Shown here piece after piece: positions 15,011 to 23,209 of a stretch of DNA of 33,841 nt (within the stretch, counting starts at the first letter, position 1; each line of letters starts with the position of its first letter). Both the position numbers and the translations under genes were made by a program. Origin of the DNA: Halobacteriales archaeon QS_8_65_32 (GTDB lineage: Archaea; Halobacteriota; Halobacteria; Halobacteriales; Halococcaceae); assembly GCA_003022925.1 (NCBI GenBank), contig PXRY01000093.1:1-33841 (forward strand), in the 5' to 3' direction. The notes beneath the pieces are model-generated. The model was not told where the DNA came from and did not search any database. It saw only the letters and a program-made list of their open reading frames with translations.

Positions 15011-18000
15011 CTATTGGGAAGCGACCGCCTCGGCGACCTTTTCGATCGGGTGAGGCGGCTCGTCGTAGCGTTCGCCCAGTTGCGTGCGACATGACGCGCC
15101 CGGCGCGACGATCCCGGTACCCGAACTCGTCTCGACCTGATCGTAGAGGATTCGGCCGATCGCCTTACTCATCGAGAAGTGTTCGGCCTCGTAGCCAAAG
15201 GAGCCAGCCATTCCACAACACCCCGAATCGAGCGGGTCGACCTCGTAGCCTGCGCGGCGAAGCACGCCGACGGCGTGGTGATCCTTCTTCGTCGCCTTCT
15301 GGTGACAGTGACCGTGATACGTGAGCGTCCCCCAGTCGGCGTCCCCCTGGCCGGCGTCCTCCGGACCGACATCGAACGCCAGTTCGCGATCGAGATCGAA
15401 CGTATCGACGTACTCACAGACGCTGTACGTCCCCGCGGCGACCCGCTCGACGTCGCGGTCGCGGTTACCCTCGTCCCCGTCGCGTCGGGTTCGGCGGCCG
15501 CCGTCGGTCGCCGGCTGGGGGCCGCTCTCGCCGGCCGCGACGGAGCCCTCGGGACCGCGATCCGGGCCGGGGAGCAGATCGAGGTAATCCGACTGGTACA
15601 TCACGGCGTCGGAGGGTTCGACGGTCACGACGTCCCAGCCCTCGGCGACGAGCGGCGCGAGCGAAGCGACGTTCGTCTCGGCGGTCTCGCGTGCCTCGCC
15701 GAGAAAGCCCTTCGAGAACGCCGGCCGGCCGCTGTCCGACAGGTCCGCCGGCACCCGACAGTGGACGCCGGCGGCTTCCAACACGTGGACCGCCGCCCGC
15801 CCTGCTCGGGGGTGGCTGTAATTCGTATACGTATCGGGCAGGAGGACGGCTCGACGGTCGGCCTCGCTTTTAGTAACTCGGGGTCCCCGATTCGCGAACC
15901 ACTCGGCGAAGGACGTCGAGTGAAAGGTCGGCAGCGTCCGCTCGCGGGCGATCCCGAGGAGCTCCTCCAAGGCCCGTCGGGAGCCCGGGACCTTCGTCGC
16001 GAGATTGGACAGCGGCGCGGTCGCGCTGCCGAGCGCAGAAAGGGAATCGATGTTCGCGAAGACCCGATCGCGAAGCGACGCGCCGTGGCGCTCGTGGTAC
16101 TCGTGAGTGACTTCGGCTTTGAGTTTCGCCATGTCGACCTCGCTCGGGCAGTTCTTCGCACAGCCCTTACAGCCGATACACAGGTCCATCACCTCGTGCA
16201 TGAACTCGGGGTCGAACTGCTCGTCGTCGGAGAGATCGCCGCTCATCGCCTGCCGGAGGAGGTTCGCCCGGCCCCGGGTGGAGGTGATCTCCTCCTCGGA
16301 CGCGCGATAGGTCGGACACATTACTCCCCCCGTCGTCTCCTGGGGACCGCGACAGCCTCCACAGCCGTGACAGAGTTCGACCATCCCCTGAAAGCCGTTC
16401 TCGTTGTCCCAGTCGAGTTCGGGCGAAAAGCCCGCGTCGAACTCGTAGTCGGGATCGAAGCGGAGGTGTTCGGTGAGGTCATAGGTCGAGTCGGCGTCGC
16501 CACAGACTGAACCGGGATTGAGCAGCCAGTCGGGGTCGAACGCCGACTTGAGGTCCCGGAAGACCCCCCAGAGGTGATCGCCGTACAGTTTCCGGTTCCA
16601 CTGGGTGCGCGCACGGCCGTCGCCGTGTTCGCCCGACACCGACCCGCCGTACTCGACGACGAGGTCGGTCACCGCTTCTGCGATCCGCTCCATCGCCGCG
16701 ACGTCGTCGAGTTCCTTCGTGTTGAGCAATGGGCGGATATGGAGCACCCCGGGACCGGCGTGAGCGTAATAGGACGCGAAGGTGTCCTCGGTGGCTAGAA
16801 TCTCCTGGAATCGCGAGACGTACTCGGGGAGGTGTGCAGCGGGGATCGCGGTGTCCTCGATGTAGGAGATGTGTTTTTCGTCCGACGTCCGCGAGAGAAG
16901 GATCGGGAGCCCGGATTTGCGCATCTTCCAGAACTTCGCGCGGGTGTCGCTGTCGTGGGCTTCCATCGCCGCTGCCGCCTGTATTGGAGCGTCAGTCGTC
17001 GTCGCGTGGTCGGTGGGTAAGGCTACGGAATCGCTCCCGGGAGCACGGTCGGCGATCAATTCGGCGGTCTTTCGTTCCCCCGCTTCGTCGGAGTCGGCGT
17101 AGAACTCGACGAGCAGCACCGAGTCAGTGCCCTCGGGGAGCATGCCGACCACGTCGGCGAACTCGGCGGTGTCCCGGGCGAGGCCCAACAACACGTCGTC
17201 CATCACCTCGACGGCCGCCGGGTCGTGTTCCAAGATGGGTGCAACGTCGGCGAGCGCATCTATGAGGTCGTCGTAGGTCAGCAAGCAGACCGCCTTCGTT
17301 TCGGGGACGGTCTCTAAGGACACCGTTGCCTCGGTGACGATCCCCAGGGTGCCCTCGCTGCCGGCCATGAGCCGTCCGAGGTTCACGGTGCCGGCGTCGG
17401 CGTCGGCGACGAGCATATCGAGATCGTACCCCGAGACGTTGCGCTTCAGGTCGGGGTAGGCTTCGTCGATCGCGTTGCGCTCCTCGTCGACGATTCGGGC
17501 GACTTCAGCGTGGATACGACCGAGGAGATCGCCCTCGGGGTCCGCACGGTCGCGGAGCGTCGGAACGCTCACCTCGCCGAATTCCTGTACGCTGCCGTCC
17601 GCGAGCACGACCTCGCACGACTCGATATAGGCGTCGGTCTTGCCGTAGACGAGCGAGTGCGCTCCTGTACTGTTGTTGCCGATCGCACCACCTAAAGCGC
17701 TCTTATCGCCCCAGGCGGGATCGGGCGCGAACTTCAGATCGTCGCCGGCGAGCGCGGCGTCGAGATCGCCCAAGTAGATCCCAGCTTCGGCGCGTGCCGT
17801 CCGGCCGTCGGGATCGACGTCGACGACGCCGTCCATGTGGCGGGTGAAATCGAGCACGACGGCCTCGTTGACCGCCTGGCCCGCGAGGCTCGTCCCGCCG
17901 CCTCGGGGCAAAACTGGGATCCCCTCCTCGGCACAGTAGGTCATTACATGGGCGACGTCGGCAGTCGATTTCGGGAGGACGACGCCGATCGGCGTCACCT

Positions 18001-18178
18001 CGTAGGCCGACGCGTCAGTTGCATATAGCTCGCGGGTGTAGGTATCGAACCGGACGTCGCCCGCGACCTGCCTTTCGAGGTCGCGAACCAGGTCGGGGCG
18101 CACAACGTCGTCGCTCCGATAGTCGTACGTTTCGCTCGCGGCGGCCGAATCGTCCGCCGGGTTCGTGCCCCGTGACAT
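15011..18178 (-). CDS. FAD-linked oxidase with Fe-S and CCG domains (D-lactate dehydrogenase/glycolate oxidase type)
   Basis: 1055 residues from the ATG at 18178, placed by a TTTATA box 27 nt upstream; a GTG at 18187 is less likely. The N-terminal PCMH FAD-binding domain shows PRGGGTSLAG (91-100), GGAIGNNSTGAHSLVYGKTD and MAGSEGTLGIVTE. The FAD-oxidase C domain includes GSVSGEHGDGRART, with the active-site histidine. An Fe-S part follows: CHGCGGC (603-609) with C621, and CIGCKGCAKNC (667-677). It ends with a GlpC-like CCG module (GHCHQKATK, then GCCGMAGSFGYE at C987-C988, then GASCRTQLG). As in the 803-residue protein, the first half-motif lacks cysteines (DSGRPAFSKG, EPSDAVMYQSDY). The family (Dld/YdiJ-like) oxidises D-lactate or D-2-hydroxyacids at the membrane. 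A disordered insert (about 865-905) interrupts the CCG module. Confidence 0.88.
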   Translation of the reverse strand: MSRGTNPADDSAAASETYDYRSDDVVRPDLVRDLERQVAGDVRFDTYTRELYATDASAYEVTPIGVVLPKSTADVAHVMTYCAEEGIPVLPRGGGTSLAGQAVNEAVVLDFTRHMDGVVDVDPDGRTARAEAGIYLGDLDAALAGDDLKFAPDPAWGDKSALGGAIGNNSTGAHSLVYGKTDAYIESCEVVLADGSVQEFGEVSVPTLRDRADPEGDLLGRIHAEVARIVDEERNAIDEAYPDLKRNVSGYDLDMLVADADAGTVNLGRLMAGSEGTLGIVTEATVSLETVPETKAVCLLTYDDLIDALADVAPILEHDPAAVEVMDDVLLGLARDTAEFADVVGMLPEGTDSVLLVEFYADSDEAGERKTAELIADRAPGSDSVALPTDHATTTDAPIQAAAAMEAHDSDTRAKFWKMRKSGLPILLSRTSDEKHISYIEDTAIPAAHLPEYVSRFQEILATEDTFASYYAHAGPGVLHIRPLLNTKELDDVAAMERIAEAVTDLVVEYGGSVSGEHGDGRARTQWNRKLYGDHLWGVFRDLKSAFDPDWLLNPGSVCGDADSTYDLTEHLRFDPDYEFDAGFSPELDWDNENGFQGMVELCHGCGGCRGPQETTGGVMCPTYRASEEEITSTRGRANLLRQAMSGDLSDDEQFDPEFMHEVMDLCIGCKGCAKNCPSEVDMAKLKAEVTHEYHERHGASLRDRVFANIDSLSALGSATAPLSNLATKVPGSRRALEELLGIARERTLPTFHSTSFAEWFANRGPRVTKSEADRRAVLLPDTYTNYSHPRAGRAAVHVLEAAGVHCRVPADLSDSGRPAFSKGFLGEARETAETNVASLAPLVAEGWDVVTVEPSDAVMYQSDYLDLLPGPDRGPEGSVAAGESGPQPATDGGRRTRRDGDEGNRDRDVERVAAGTYSVCEYVDTFDLDRELAFDVGPEDAGQGDADWGTLTYHGHCHQKATKKDHHAVGVLRRAGYEVDPLDSGCCGMAGSFGYEAEHFSMSKAIGRILYDQVETSSGTGIVAPGASCRTQLGERYDEPPHPIEKVAEAVASQ

Positions 18179-18202
18179 AGGGAACACTCCTTCCGGCGTC
18201 CG

Positions 18203-18208: not shown

Positions 18209-18445
18209 CCGCCCGACGACGCCGATCCTAACCTCGGTTCCGGTCTCTGAAGCGCCGGCCGCGAAACAGCGGACGATAGCGTCGAAAACCGGCTTCGAGC
18301 CTGGAGCGGGATTCGATCGACGCCGCCGAACGGACCTTAGGACTGTGAAGCTCCGACGTCACGGAACCGCGGAACCTTGGAGTTACAACGGACGAGAACC
18401 CATGTGACTCCCTCGCCGTCGTCGGTTCGACCGGTCTGCCAAGGG

Positions 18446-18450
18446 TTAAG
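18446..18450 (+). promoter_or_regulatory. TATA-like box of the PRC-barrel gene
   Basis: TTAAG inside GGGTTAAGACCC is centred about 28 nt before the ATG at 18476. Confidence 0.4.
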
Positions 18451-18475
18451 ACCCACCCCGTCTTGGCCCGCATAT

Positions 18476-18787
18476 ATGAGTGCAAGCGCGAGCGCGGACG
18501 AGGCGGAGGGGACGCGGCGAGCGCAGGACATCACGACGCTGATCGGCCGGGAGGTCTACTCGTCGAACGGGATCTACGTTGGCGAGATCGAGGACGTCCG
18601 CTTGGACCTGGACGCCGAACGGGTAACCGGTCTCGCGATGGCGGCGCTCAACGACGACCTGTTCGCGGACGTCGCCCGGGACGTTCGCGGCGTCATCGTT
18701 CCCTACCGGTGGGTCAGAGCCGTCGGCGACGTGGTTCTCGTCCACGACCTCGTCGAACGCCCGAGGGACCCCGACGAGGACGAGTGA
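18476..18787 (+). CDS. PRC-barrel domain protein
   Basis: 103 residues from the ATG at 18476, placed by the TATA-like element 28 nt upstream. The domain runs from about residue 18 to 95: DITTLIGREVYSSNGIYVGE, then IEDVRLDLDAERVTGLAMAA, and a VPYRWVRAVGDVVLVHD close. This is the strand order of the PRC barrel, a small beta fold first seen in photosynthetic reaction centres and in the RNA-processing protein RimM. Stand-alone PRC proteins are abundant in haloarchaea; a link to RNA metabolism or cell division has been discussed, but no function can be read here. It has an acidic N-terminus and C-terminus (DPDEDE). It converges on the DHH gene, whose stop lies 86 bases away. Confidence 0.82.
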   Translation: MSASASADEAEGTRRAQDITTLIGREVYSSNGIYVGEIEDVRLDLDAERVTGLAMAALNDDLFADVARDVRGVIVPYRWVRAVGDVVLVHDLVERPRDPDEDE

Positions 18788-18873: not shown

Positions 18874-20319
18874 TCAGTCGCCGTTCCCGTTGCTCTCGAC
18901 GCCCATCTCGGTGAAGAGGCGTCGTCGAACCGCTTCCTCGGTGAGCGACAGGAGGGTATCGCGATTTTTCTCGCTCGTCTCGATCCCGGTGAAGATGCCG
19001 AGGGGGATGTCGATGGAGGCGTCCGTCGAGTGGCCGACCGCCTCGCCGTTCTCGCCGAAGGCGTCCTCGAGAACACGGCGGATATTGAGCCGGATGTCCT
19101 TCGAGCGGGCGGCCAAGTGAATCGTGTTCTCGCTGATCGCGAACACGGCGGTGGTAGTGATTCCTTCCAGGTTGAGCAGGTGTTGGGCCGCCCGGGCGAG
19201 CGCGTTGCGATCGCGGACGAACCCCGCGTTCGATATCAAGTGACTGCCCCGCACGTCGCGGTTGCCGATCGCTTCGGCGAGGACATCTAGGGTTTCGGGG
19301 GACATCGAGGGCGATTCGACCTGTTCTAAGGTGTCGTGATCGGCGAAGGGATAGAGATAGGCCGCCGCAGTCAGATCGGCGGGTCTGGTGTCGCGCTTGA
19401 AATCGAGCGTCTCGGCGCGAATACCGTACAGCAGTGCAGTCGCAACGTCTTCGGCGAGGCTCAGGTCGAGTTCCTGGACGTACTTGGTGACGATCGTCGA
19501 CGTCGAGGCGACGTTCGGGCGGACGTCGACGAAAGTGGCGTCGTACTCGACCTCCGGTTCGTAGTGGTCGATCACGACGTCGACCGGGCGATCGACCGGG
19601 GATTCGGCGGCTTTCGCGTGATCGACGAGCGCGATCGTGTCGTACTCCTCTAAGTCGACGTCCGAGCGCGCGAGCAGGTCGATCCCGAGCAGGTTCACGA
19701 ACGCGCGATCCTCCTGGTGGCCGATCTCGCCGTTGTAGACGATGTCGGTCTCTATGTCGCGGTTCCGACAGATCGCGCGCAACGCAACGGCGCTCGCGAT
19801 CGTATCCGGGCCCGGGTTGTCGTGGGTGAGAATCGCGAACTTACTACTCGTTCCGTCGATGACCTCGGCCAACTGGTCGGCTTTGTATTCGAGTTCGCCG
19901 GTCTCTAAGGCACGAAGCGCCGCGTTCGCGATTACCTCCGAGGGGTTGATCACGACGTCCGCACCGACGTCACGCAGGTCGTCGGCCGAGACCGGATCGG
20001 ATGCCCGGGCAACGACGAACTGGTCGCCGCCCTCCTCGCGGACGTTTGCAACGGCAGCACGGTTCGCTTCGATGTCCGAGGAGAGAACGAGGACCACGTC
20101 GCGTTCGGCGATAGCGTCGACGACCTCTCCCTCGCGGATGTCGGCGGCCTGGGCGTTCAGGTCTTGGTCACGAAGCGAGTCGACGCGTCCCTCATCGCGA
20201 TCGACGATGAACACGTCCTTTCCCTCCCCGACTAAGTCCTCGGCGACGGCGTACCCGACGCTCCCGCAGCCGAGGATCGCATATGAGGAGATCGACGCCA
20301 TCGTGATCCCGGAACTCAT
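18874..20319 (-). CDS. RCK (TrkA-N) - DHH - DHHA1 phosphoesterase fusion
   Basis: 481 residues from the ATG at 20319. A GTG one codon earlier and an ATG at 20301 are alternatives; TTAAGTA at 20342-20348 favours 20319. Domain order: an RCK/TrkA-N Rossmann domain (about 10-125; ILGCGSVGYAVAEDL with GCGSVG at 17-22, then VDRDE), a DHH phosphoesterase (about 155-300; LTHDNPGPDTIASAVALR, ALVDHAKAAE and VVIDHYEPEVEYD supply the metal-binding Asp/His), and DHHA1 (about 350-470; ARSKDIRLNIRRVLEDAF, then GEAVGHSTDAS). DHH-DHHA1 enzymes hydrolyse c-di-AMP, pApA, nanoRNA or pyrophosphate, while RCK domains bind NAD(H) or c-di-AMP and gate potassium transport. The fusion suggests a nucleotide-sensing phosphodiesterase, possibly for c-di-AMP; that is inference. 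It is cytoplasmic and transcribed alone. Confidence 0.88.
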   Translation of the reverse strand: MSSGITMASISSYAILGCGSVGYAVAEDLVGEGKDVFIVDRDEGRVDSLRDQDLNAQAADIREGEVVDAIAERDVVLVLSSDIEANRAAVANVREEGGDQFVVARASDPVSADDLRDVGADVVINPSEVIANAALRALETGELEYKADQLAEVIDGTSSKFAILTHDNPGPDTIASAVALRAICRNRDIETDIVYNGEIGHQEDRAFVNLLGIDLLARSDVDLEEYDTIALVDHAKAAESPVDRPVDVVIDHYEPEVEYDATFVDVRPNVASTSTIVTKYVQELDLSLAEDVATALLYGIRAETLDFKRDTRPADLTAAAYLYPFADHDTLEQVESPSMSPETLDVLAEAIGNRDVRGSHLISNAGFVRDRNALARAAQHLLNLEGITTTAVFAISENTIHLAARSKDIRLNIRRVLEDAFGENGEAVGHSTDASIDIPLGIFTGIETSEKNRDTLLSLTEEAVRRRLFTEMGVESNGNGD

Positions 20320-20679
20320 CACCAGGGTTCGTGACCGGCGGTACTTAACTCCGGACCTTTTACTCTGCGCTCAACGCGCTTCGCGCGTCTCGCTCGGTAA
20401 AAGCTCCACCAAAAGCACTCCTCGCTCCTGTCGCGCTCACTCGTGGTTCGAGACGGCTCCGCCGTCTCGTCATCGCAAAGGCGCTTCGCGCCTTTTGAAC
20501 GACTTCGCTCGTTCGCGCGGTAGTCGCTCGTCGGCCCGCTCGTTCGCCTGCGGCTCACTCGCGGTACGATCGCTCGTTCCTGCGGTGCCAGCGGATGAGC
20601 TTCCCTCGTTGCGCCGTCTGGAACGTGTGCCCTGACGTTCGATTCGCGGATGCGGTATCGAGTCGCTCTCCGTAGTCGC
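20320..20679. other. Non-coding, hairpin-rich gap with structured repeat family B copy 1
   Basis: 360 bases without a supportable gene. They hold the DHH promoter (TACTTAA, 20342-20348 on the plus strand), hairpin element B1 (20353-20407), and several perfect palindromic hairpins further right (GAGACGGCTCCGCCGTCTC, 20452-20470; AAAGGCGCTTCGCGCCTTTT, 20477-20496). The rest is CGCTCG-type sequence. Confidence 0.6.
20353..20407 (-). repeat. Hairpin repeat family B, copy 1
   Basis: Read on the minus strand, GGAGCTTTTAC (20407-20397) faces GTAAAAGGTCC (20363-20353), an 11-bp stem with one mismatch. The loop carries its own CGCGCGAAGCGCG hairpin. It is preceded by GAGTGCTTTTGGT. It sits immediately upstream of the DHH gene's TATA box. 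The same design recurs at 22078-22150. Confidence 0.55.
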
Positions 20680-22153: not shown

Positions 22154-22582
22154 CTAACAGCGCTCCTCGCAGATCCGATCGACGATGGTGCCCGTTGAGA
22201 GCACGGCGTCGTCGAAGTCGGGCTCACAGGGCGAGGCCCGCCGGACCGCACAGTCGATTCCGCGCTCGGCGAGCGCACGTTCGATGGCCCGTTCGTCGTG
22301 GTGTTGGTCGTGGCCGAGCACGATCACATCAGGATCGATCTCCTCGATCGGCACGAAGATGTCCTCGGAGTGGCCGAGTACGGCGTGATCGACGGGATCG
22401 AGTGCGGCGACCACCGCCCGGCGCTGACGTGTAGGAACGATCGGTCGCTGCTTGTGGGTAACGTTCGTTTCGCGGCTGACGATCACGAACAGCTCCTCGC
22501 CCATCGCGGCGGCCTTCCGGAGGTAGTGGACGTGACCGGGGTGAAGCAGATCGAACGTGCCCTGGGCGACGACTTGAGTCAT
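22154..22582 (-). CDS. ribL: Archaeal FAD synthase RibL (nucleotidyltransferase)
   Basis: 142 residues. The cytidylyltransferase-like signature [18 protein letters not shown] carries HxGH (H14, H17), which binds the triphosphate of [13 protein letters not shown] and [14 protein letters not shown] supply the C-terminal motif equivalent to ISSTxL. Archaeal RibL adenylylates FMN to make FAD; length and the [11 protein letters not shown] segment agree with that subfamily rather than glycerol-3-phosphate cytidylyltransferase, although the two are close. The start overlaps the stop of the JAMM gene (ATGA, 22579-22582), so translation is coupled. A strong hairpin (22078-22150) follows the stop. The flavin link to the renalase-like and D-LDH-type flavoproteins elsewhere in the window is general, not operonic. 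Confidence 0.88.
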
Positions 22583-23181
22583 CTACTCGACCTGTCCGTG
22601 TCCGTGCCCGTGTTCATATCCGTATCCGAGTCGCGGTTCGCCTTCGTCCCCTCGTTGCGTCCCGGGTCACGGCCCTCGGCGGCGAGTTCGGCGTCGATGT
22701 CCGCCTGGGTGAAATCGAAGAAGTCGGCGTCGCGCTCGCGATGGCGGGCTTCGGTATCCACGTCGATGTCGAGCACTCGGAGGTCGGTGCGATACCCCTC
22801 GCGGTCGAACGCCCGCCAGTCGCGCTCGCGATACGGCGCGCCGACGATGATATGTACCTGGCCGCGCGTGAACGTACCGAGATCGGCGTCGCTCGGGCGG
22901 AGCACGCCATTGGGGTGGGAGTGAACCGAGCCCACCACCCGAAAGTCGTTCGGGACGAGGCTCGTTTTCACCGTTGCGCTCACCGGGTTGGTCTCGGTGG
23001 CCGGAACGACGAGCACCTCCGTTATCACCGTGCCCTCGCGATCGAGACCGACCGTGCTCGCGGGTTCGCCGCGCAGCAGTCCCATGTACTCGTTCGGGTG
23101 GCTGTCGGCGGCGGCTCCGAGACAGAGATCGAGAACGGGCGCGGCGATTCCGAGCAGTTCGCCCGACCGGGAGCGGCCCAT
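22579..23181 (-). CDS. JAMM/MPN+ metalloprotease (possible desampylase)
   Basis: 200 residues from the ATG at 23181. The JAMM zinc-protease signature is complete: Glu31 (NEYMGLL), then [14 protein letters not shown] with H87, H89, S97 and D100 in H-x-H-x7-S-x2-D spacing. In Haloferax, JAMM proteins remove ubiquitin-like SAMP modifiers from proteins, and this protein is comparable to that family's second member. After the domain (about 1-130) comes a helical stretch [20 protein letters not shown] and an Asp/Thr/Asn-rich disordered tail ([17 protein letters not shown]). A start eight codons upstream (23205) is open, but the TTAGAT box lies over it, favouring 23181. It forms an operon with ribL (ATGA overlap). 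Element copy 2 lies 90 nt upstream. The substrate is inferred from family. Confidence 0.88.
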
Positions 23182-23203
23182 ACGATAGATGGCTTTCGGT
23201 CGC

Positions 23204-23209
23204 ATCTAA
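23204..23209 (-). promoter_or_regulatory. TATA box of the JAMM-ribL operon
   Basis: TTAGAT on the minus strand is centred about 26 nt before the ATG at 23181. It lies between structured element copy 2 and the gene, and overlaps the alternative start codon at 23205, arguing against it. Confidence 0.45.

Follow-up and report, generated by a model that had tools for sequence, protein, structure and literature searches.

With moderate confidence, and going by its residues, we read the RCK-DHH-DHHA1 protein described here as a catalytically disabled pseudo-phosphodiesterase which keeps an intact RCK domain and would function in nucleotide binding and signalling. The window (the whole 33,841-nucleotide stretch of haloarchaeal DNA that was analysed) encodes it on the minus strand, with an ATG at 20317-20319 and a stop at 18874-18876, giving 481 aa when counted from this ATG; an in-frame GTG lies just upstream. 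Translation of 18874-20319 on the plus strand has internal stops.

Table 1. Positions of the protein, its domains and active-site residues, and the neighboring PRC-barrel gene in the window.
Feature	Position	Strand	Basis
RCK-DHH-DHHA1 protein (family A; HVO_1690-like by synteny)	18874..20319	-	ORF, Pfam, orthologs
RCK_N / TrkA_N domain, residues 13-126	19942..20283	-	Pfam and fold match 3llv
DHH domain, ~residues 160-300, GdpP/NrnA-like fold	19420..19842	-	Pfam and fold matches
DHHA1 domain, residues 368-439; RSKDIR and GHST regions conserved	19003..19218	-	Pfam (below cut-off), fold
His166, equivalent to H20 of B. subtilis NrnA; metal-2 ligand position, kept	19822..19824	-	motif alignment
Gly170 in place of the Asp of intact relatives (D24 of NrnA); metal-2 ligand, lost	19810..19812	-	motif alignment
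Asp172, equivalent to D26 of NrnA; metal-1 ligand, kept	19804..19806	-	motif alignment
Asp233, equivalent to D80 of NrnA; motif II metal ligand, kept	19621..19623	-	motif alignment
Asp251-His252-Tyr253, degenerate DHH motif; second His (H104 of NrnA) replaced by Tyr	19561..19569	-	motif alignment
Glu303 (Glu in 99/99 family A) where NrnA has its motif IV Asp (D156)	19411..19413	-	motif alignment
PRC-barrel gene, 103 aa from this ATG; convergent conserved neighbor	18476..18787	+	PRC PF05239 1.5e-11

Pfam matched TrkA_N (6.2e-21) and DHH (3.2e-11) in the window protein over their cut-offs and DHHA1 (0.0027) under it, whilst in the Haloferax ortholog (L036) all three domains were over their cut-offs. 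Upstream of DHH only TrkA_N and other Rossmann-type matches were seen, and no RCK_C/TrkA_C match was found by Pfam up to E 0.1. The RCK_N domain has both the GxGxxG motif and the acidic residue after strand 2 that are expected of a nucleotide-binding domain of this type. An AlphaFold2 model, for which the input was an alignment of 41 rows (the window protein plus 40 haloarchaeal orthologs), had a mean pLDDT of 73.4 and a pTM of 0.49. Its best PDB matches were GdpP catalytic-domain chains (5xsp, 5xsi, 5xt3; VIA Z 22.2-22.8 over 295-297 residues), spanning about residues 139-478 of the window protein, and residues 141-473 in the match at Z 22.8. Folds of NrnA, Rv2837c and TM1595 were also matched, and residues 10-141 matched 3llv, an RCK domain from Archaeoglobus. 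Overall rmsd against the GdpP chains was ~17 Å; as the DHH part alone fits other chains at 2.6-2.9 Å, this value probably reflects a differing arrangement of the DHH and DHHA1 subdomains. By fold, then, the protein belongs to the DHH-DHHA1 superfamily. Given the Pfam domains and a model that matches both GdpP and 3llv, the fusion proposed in the earlier note is real, far beyond chance, and it recurs nearly full length at 66-89% identity in the best 80 of the 104 confirmed genome loci.

In B. subtilis NrnA, the ligands of metal 1 are the first DHH His, the second DxD Asp, and the Asp residues of motifs II and IV. Those of metal 2 include the motif I His and the first DxD Asp but not the second DHH His, which is free to meet substrate (PMC5593865). 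Equivalences were assigned by motif alignment, the same motifs being aligned also with a solved c-di-AMP phosphodiesterase. In window numbering this places metal 1 at 252/172/233/303, metal 2 at 170/166 and the substrate-facing His at 253. The eight active-site positions read H-G-D-D-D-H-Y-E (His166, Gly170, Asp172, Asp233, Asp251, His252, Tyr253, Glu303). The "complete DHH-DHHA1 hydrolase" of the earlier note was therefore wrong, as the motif is DHY and the first Asp of DxD is Gly; an active DHH phosphoesterase would have the second DHH His in addition to both metal sites, which HGDDDHYE does not offer. The same eight residues are found in three sister genomes (L085-L087), ruling out a sequencing error.

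Mutation of the second His kills the activity of the P. yayanosii pApase, and mutations of the DxD Asp residues inactivate it (PMC8268124). With the second His and the first DxD Asp lost, the window protein should be inactive or nearly so by the standard of this distant relative. By the same kind of analogy DHH sites tolerate some damage, as mutation of the first His of that pApase had almost no effect (PMC8268124) and a B. subtilis NrnA H103A mutant had residual activity (PMC5593865).

We next set the protein among its relatives, using the letters A-D and M as our own labels for family A (that of the window protein), paralogs B, C and D, and clade M. Family A was present in all 53 phylum-sample genomes of the window's order (each with its best match at E 1.4e-163 or lower) and in 39/41 genomes of the nearest-relatives sample, both genomes without it belonging to one family (f2). 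In H. volcanii the putative ortholog is HVO_1690, by synteny: its locus number adjoins that of the PRC gene HVO_1691, and at the named Haloferax loci family A genes converge on a PRC gene. All 39 family A genomes carry at least one further DHH-DHHA1 homolog (counted by eye, with the active site read in part of them). Paralog B is itself an RCK-DHH-DHHA1 protein, about 35-42% identical to family A over its full length, and is encoded in the window genome with a complete DHH site (L114, contig C100:26249-27637). Paralog C is a haloarchaeal DHH-DHHA1 protein without a recognisable RCK domain, and in paralog D a hydrophobic N-terminal stretch (seen by eye) precedes DHH-DHHA1. The third DHH protein of the window genome (L115) gave no match to the window protein. 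A further DHH-DHHA1 paralog (L143; G033, C1:144542-145513) has lost nearly all catalytic positions (PSDARHRG) and has no recognisable RCK glycine motif. Among the matches listed, full-length RCK-DHH-DHHA1 homologs of ~40-50% identity are widespread elsewhere in the phylum; 20 of these non-haloarchaeal proteins, fetched and read, make up clade M.

Site conservation was assessed in 99 distinct haloarchaeal family A sequences (the window and named loci gave 70, other genomes 29; identical copies removed). The metal-1 site was kept in 94/99, which rules out a total loss of metal binding, the metal-2 site in 64/99 and His253 in 15/99; all positions, with Glu allowed at 303, were kept in only six. 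At an 85% identity limit 42 sequences were left, five of which have His166, Asp170 and His253 together. Position 253 is occupied by Y, F, H, N, L, A and others. Haloferax sequences read DHF and keep both metal sites; the window protein lacks D170 as well. Five deep-branching members were counted apart: one (L149) is intact except for Glu303, and the other four have lost at least three of the eight sites, L127 having two of the eight left.

Changes were then counted on a family A tree built without the eight active-site columns. Site 253 changed at least 28 times, at the 95th percentile of the DHH-DHHA1 region, and sites 170 and 166 changed seven and six times (66th and 63rd percentiles). Since five of the eight sites changed at most once, and changes over all eight sum to 43 against 79 for eight average DHH positions, the loss is selective and not general. 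In the same sequences RCK Gly17, Gly19, Gly22 and Asp40 and DHHA1 Gly429-His430 underwent no change (99/99), and the RCK motif YAILGCGSVG is unaltered in 99/99. Residues of NrnA that bind nucleotide in DHHA1 (Arg, GGGH; PMC5593865) have near-invariant counterparts, with R405 in 98/99 and R410, G429 and H430 in 99/99. This invariance of RCK and DHHA1 residues rules out drift of the whole protein. Many positions are also invariant in residues 292-350, which comprise motif IV and the following helices.

Controls behaved differently. In paralog B the eight sites were complete in 40/40 sequences, with zero changes at any of them, and in clade M His166, Asp170 and His253 were unaltered in 20/20, with Glu at motif II in 2/20 and at motif IV in 2/20. 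The active site was complete in 7/7 sequences of paralog D and in all 21 of paralog C, 20 with Glu and one with Asp at motif IV. As Glu occurs there in these 20/21 paralog C and 2/20 clade M sequences that are otherwise intact, Glu303 alone is probably tolerated and was not counted as damage. The trees had 99, 40 and 20 rows (A, B and M) with means of 9.9, 6.2 and 4.6 changes per DHH position, a difference in size that does not explain 28 changes at position 253 in A versus zero in B and M. Degenerate DHH ligands were what the earlier note had named as speaking against its proposal, and in sequence they are degenerate, at residues which do not vary in the paralogs and non-haloarchaeal relatives sampled. 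The RCK domain of paralog B showed eight changes at Gly22 and nine at Asp40, with Asp at position 40 in 11/40. To judge from these residues, family A has kept the sensor and lost the enzyme, whereas paralog B has kept the enzyme and relaxed the sensor.

A mixture-model tree was constructed from 81 rows (28/104 A, 16/40 B, 10/21 C, 7/7 D and 20 M, leaving out L143) by a quick method without bootstrap. Family A formed one clade (SH-aLRT 100), sister to clade M (98), with B and C outside A+M and the order of B and C supported at 24. Being sister to clade M, family A most likely descended from a protein with a complete active site. With A grouping with M (98), there is no support for a duplication within haloarchaea that would make A and B sisters. 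In sequence, family A thus combines what marks a pseudoenzyme: a conserved fold, lost catalytic residues and a sister clade with an intact site. Against this reading, the predicted loss is not uniform, as six of the 99 sequences keep everything but the D-to-E change at 303 and 64 keep both metal-2 ligands.

We consider it unlikely that the protein is instead still active as a c-di-AMP (or pApA) phosphodiesterase through a remodelled site, in which Tyr/Phe253 and Glu303 would substitute and the second metal would be weak or unneeded. Such an enzyme would agree with the listing of HVO_1690 as a predicted phosphodiesterase (PMC8305020), with the closest fold being the GdpP catalytic domain with pApA, with the co-occurrence of the family with diadenylate cyclase (below), and with a metal-1 site kept in 94/99 and a full set, including Glu303, in 6/99; the conserved metal-1 ligands may mean that some chemistry remains. 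However, the second His is essential in the P. yayanosii pApase (PMC8268124), the varied residues at 253 look like lost constraint and not like new fixed chemistry, and four of the five deep-branching members lack three or more of the eight sites. The likelier hydrolase, as predicted from its residues, is the intact paralog B on contig C100 (L114).

More doubtful still is a structural or scaffold protein, in which DHH-DHHA1 would hold a dimer or partner, would bind no nucleotide and would leave sensing to RCK alone. The many invariant positions in residues 292-350 and the partly degenerate DHH ligand cleft would suit such a role, for which there is a parallel in haloarchaeal RecJ homologs with inactivated DHH that are thought to be structural (PMC3307487), but the near-invariant DHHA1 counterparts of the NrnA nucleotide-binding residues (R405 98/99; the other three 99/99) argue against it. 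Very improbable is an NrnA-type nanoRNase, pAp phosphatase or RecJ-like repair nuclease under RCK control, since, although the NrnA, Rv2837c and TM1595 folds match and HVO_1690 is grouped under DNA recombination/repair and goes up under hypochlorite in strain LM08, the same catalytic residues are lost, the "repair" label is probably a superfamily-based annotation, and the two archaeal pApases with motifs given in the literature covered have them complete.

We also assessed the c-di-AMP setting. c-di-AMP is reported to be essential in H. volcanii, and its phosphodiesterase and targets are given as not known in papers of 2021, including PMC8406309. The window genome encodes a diadenylate cyclase (main match on contig C11), as do 53/53 sampled genomes of its order; a second, sub-threshold DAC-domain match lies at C90:58103-58342 (L155). 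In the 241 other genomes of the phylum sample, where RCK-DHH presence was taken as a match at E 1e-40 or better, a cyclase was found in 202/213 genomes with the family versus 8/28 without (Fisher p = 2e-15). This p overstates independence, because the co-occurrence is clustered in clades (all ten sampled genomes of family f33 lack both; in genus g55 two of ten have both and eight neither), and the pattern counts as a few events. The 31 cyclase-negative genomes are the complement of the listed positives, as 11 were missing from the listing. Exceptions were 11 genomes with the family and no cyclase match, and eight with cyclase and no family, six of those being <85% complete. As the 20 proteins read from this sample are all of the nearly intact form, it is for the ancestral family, and not for the haloarchaeal form itself, that the co-occurrence supports a role in c-di-AMP. 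Of what the earlier note had suggested, the c-di-AMP setting holds up through the genome's cyclase, the co-occurrence (mostly of the intact form) and the GdpP fold, and the phosphodiesterase activity does not, with a ligand and the second His replaced. Its remark that RCK regulators are c-di-AMP targets applies to the RCK_C domain as described in the literature seen, and not to this protein, in which RCK_N/TrkA_N alone was matched.

Between the end of the PRC-barrel gene at 18787 and the RCK-DHH-DHHA1 stop lie 86 bases, and a longer ORF at 18377-18787 also matched PRC PF05239 (3.5e-11). A convergent PRC-barrel gene of ~100 residues was found at 74/80 haloarchaeal loci and at none of the other six, with a 4-base overlap at 25 loci, a distance within 100 bases at 58 and 2 kb at the farthest. 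Five deep-branching haloarchaeal loci (L255-L259) also have this neighbor; L260 has neither a family A gene nor a PRC match. Outside haloarchaea the synteny is weak: at 19 loci (L236-L254, some ending at contig ends) a convergent PRC gene lay within ~1.1 kb in three (L236, L238, L250), two had a more distant same-strand match and 14 had none. Since convergent genes are not co-transcribed, we take the synteny as a lead and not as proof of partnership. We presume that HVO_1691 is CdpB1. In H. volcanii HVO_1691 is described as a "PRC domain protein", and the cell-division regulator CdrS is bound upstream of it, as it is for dacZ and ftsZ1 (PMC8406309). CdpB1 and CdpB2, both PRC-barrel proteins, have a role in division (PMC12186497).

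Upstream neighbor clusters were identified by Pfam on one representative each. The commonest were a GNAT acetyltransferase (18/80 loci) and an IMP dehydrogenase with CBS domains (11/80), with no clustered upstream gene at 25/80; others, at three or more loci, were a UbiA prenyltransferase, an ABC-transporter ATPase (AAA/SMC-like), a class II tRNA synthetase and three Pfam-less families. An MFS transporter (cluster 9) was the upstream neighbor at one locus and present at 11. No K+ channel gene was found among the identified neighbor clusters in this partial check. Elsewhere in the window, the intergenic stretch 20360-20640, before the next membrane-protein gene, is by eye rich in short repeated motifs (variants of cgcttcgcg and ctcgctcg). 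At 22154-23205 on the minus strand the genes for a Prok-JAB (JAMM-type) protease and a cytidylyltransferase-like protein share 4 bases, which suggests co-transcription. A 1058-residue ORF at 15011-18187 (minus strand) combines, by eye, an FAD-linked oxidase with a cysteine-rich iron-sulphur/CCG-type half; in several other haloarchaea, genes resembling it (cluster 3) sit on the far side of the PRC gene.

On the preferred reading, a disabled pseudo-phosphodiesterase, an ancestral RCK-DHH-DHHA1 protein with an intact site would have given rise to a family A that lacks the substrate-facing His, the second metal site or both, and whose DHH-DHHA1 module retains the fold, the metal-1 site and the chief residues by which DHHA1 binds nucleotide. 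Haloarchaeal hydrolysis would be left to the intact paralogs B, C and D. A small adenine nucleotide (c-di-AMP, pApA or AMP) would be bound between DHH and DHHA1 and left uncleaved, the RCK site would read NAD(H) or adenine nucleotide, and the combined state would be passed to a partner, the first candidate being the neighboring PRC-barrel protein. As a speculation to which we give little weight, haloarchaea may have made an ancestral RCK-coupled c-di-AMP phosphodiesterase into a receptor for c-di-AMP or pApA, reading NAD(H) or adenine nucleotide as well, with the PRC-barrel protein tying together c-di-AMP, redox and cell division; paralog B would have gone the opposite way, the enzyme kept and the RCK site decaying. 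If the HVO_1690 family is a pseudoenzyme, the phosphodiesterase should be sought among the intact paralogs, and HVO_1690 would be a candidate receptor instead. Whether c-di-AMP is linked to cell division in archaea could then be tested directly, given CdrS at HVO_1691, dacZ and ftsZ1.

Both the architecture and the hydrolase idea are already in print. DHH-DHHA1 proteins of arCOG01566, some fused to a Rossmann NAD-binding domain, were called likely enzymes in 2012 (Makarova 2012, PMC3307487); the window protein has this architecture and probably belongs to arCOG01566. The 2012 passage on arCOG01566 does not single out haloarchaeal members as degenerate, and the title of PDB entry 3llv names the NAD(P)-binding domain of an Archaeoglobus exopolyphosphatase-related protein. 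HVO_1690, HVO_0756 and HVO_0990 have been listed as predicted c-di-AMP phosphodiesterases (PMC8305020, citing PMID 32095817). In the titles, abstract openings and passages covered, we found no degenerate DHH site reported for the RCK-fused family. A haloarchaeal precedent for DHH with a lost active site exists in the inactivated RecJ homologs (arCOG00428; H. volcanii RecJ2 and RecJ4), regarded as structural components of the replication complex (PMC3307487), but these are of the RecJ clade and of replication or RNA-processing complexes, and no RCK domain is mentioned for them. GdpP has a PAS/GGDEF region before DHH-DHHA1, where the window protein has RCK, followed by a broken site, and the window protein does not qualify as a GdpP. 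The RCK gating proteins KtrA and TrkA share the RCK_N fold and glycine-rich motif with the window protein, but their c-di-AMP-binding part, as described, is RCK_C; having none, the window protein falls outside the RCK_C c-di-AMP receptors. Paralog B (L114) has the same RCK-DHH-DHHA1 arrangement as the window protein, with its active site complete and the RCK positions of Gly22 and Asp40 varying.
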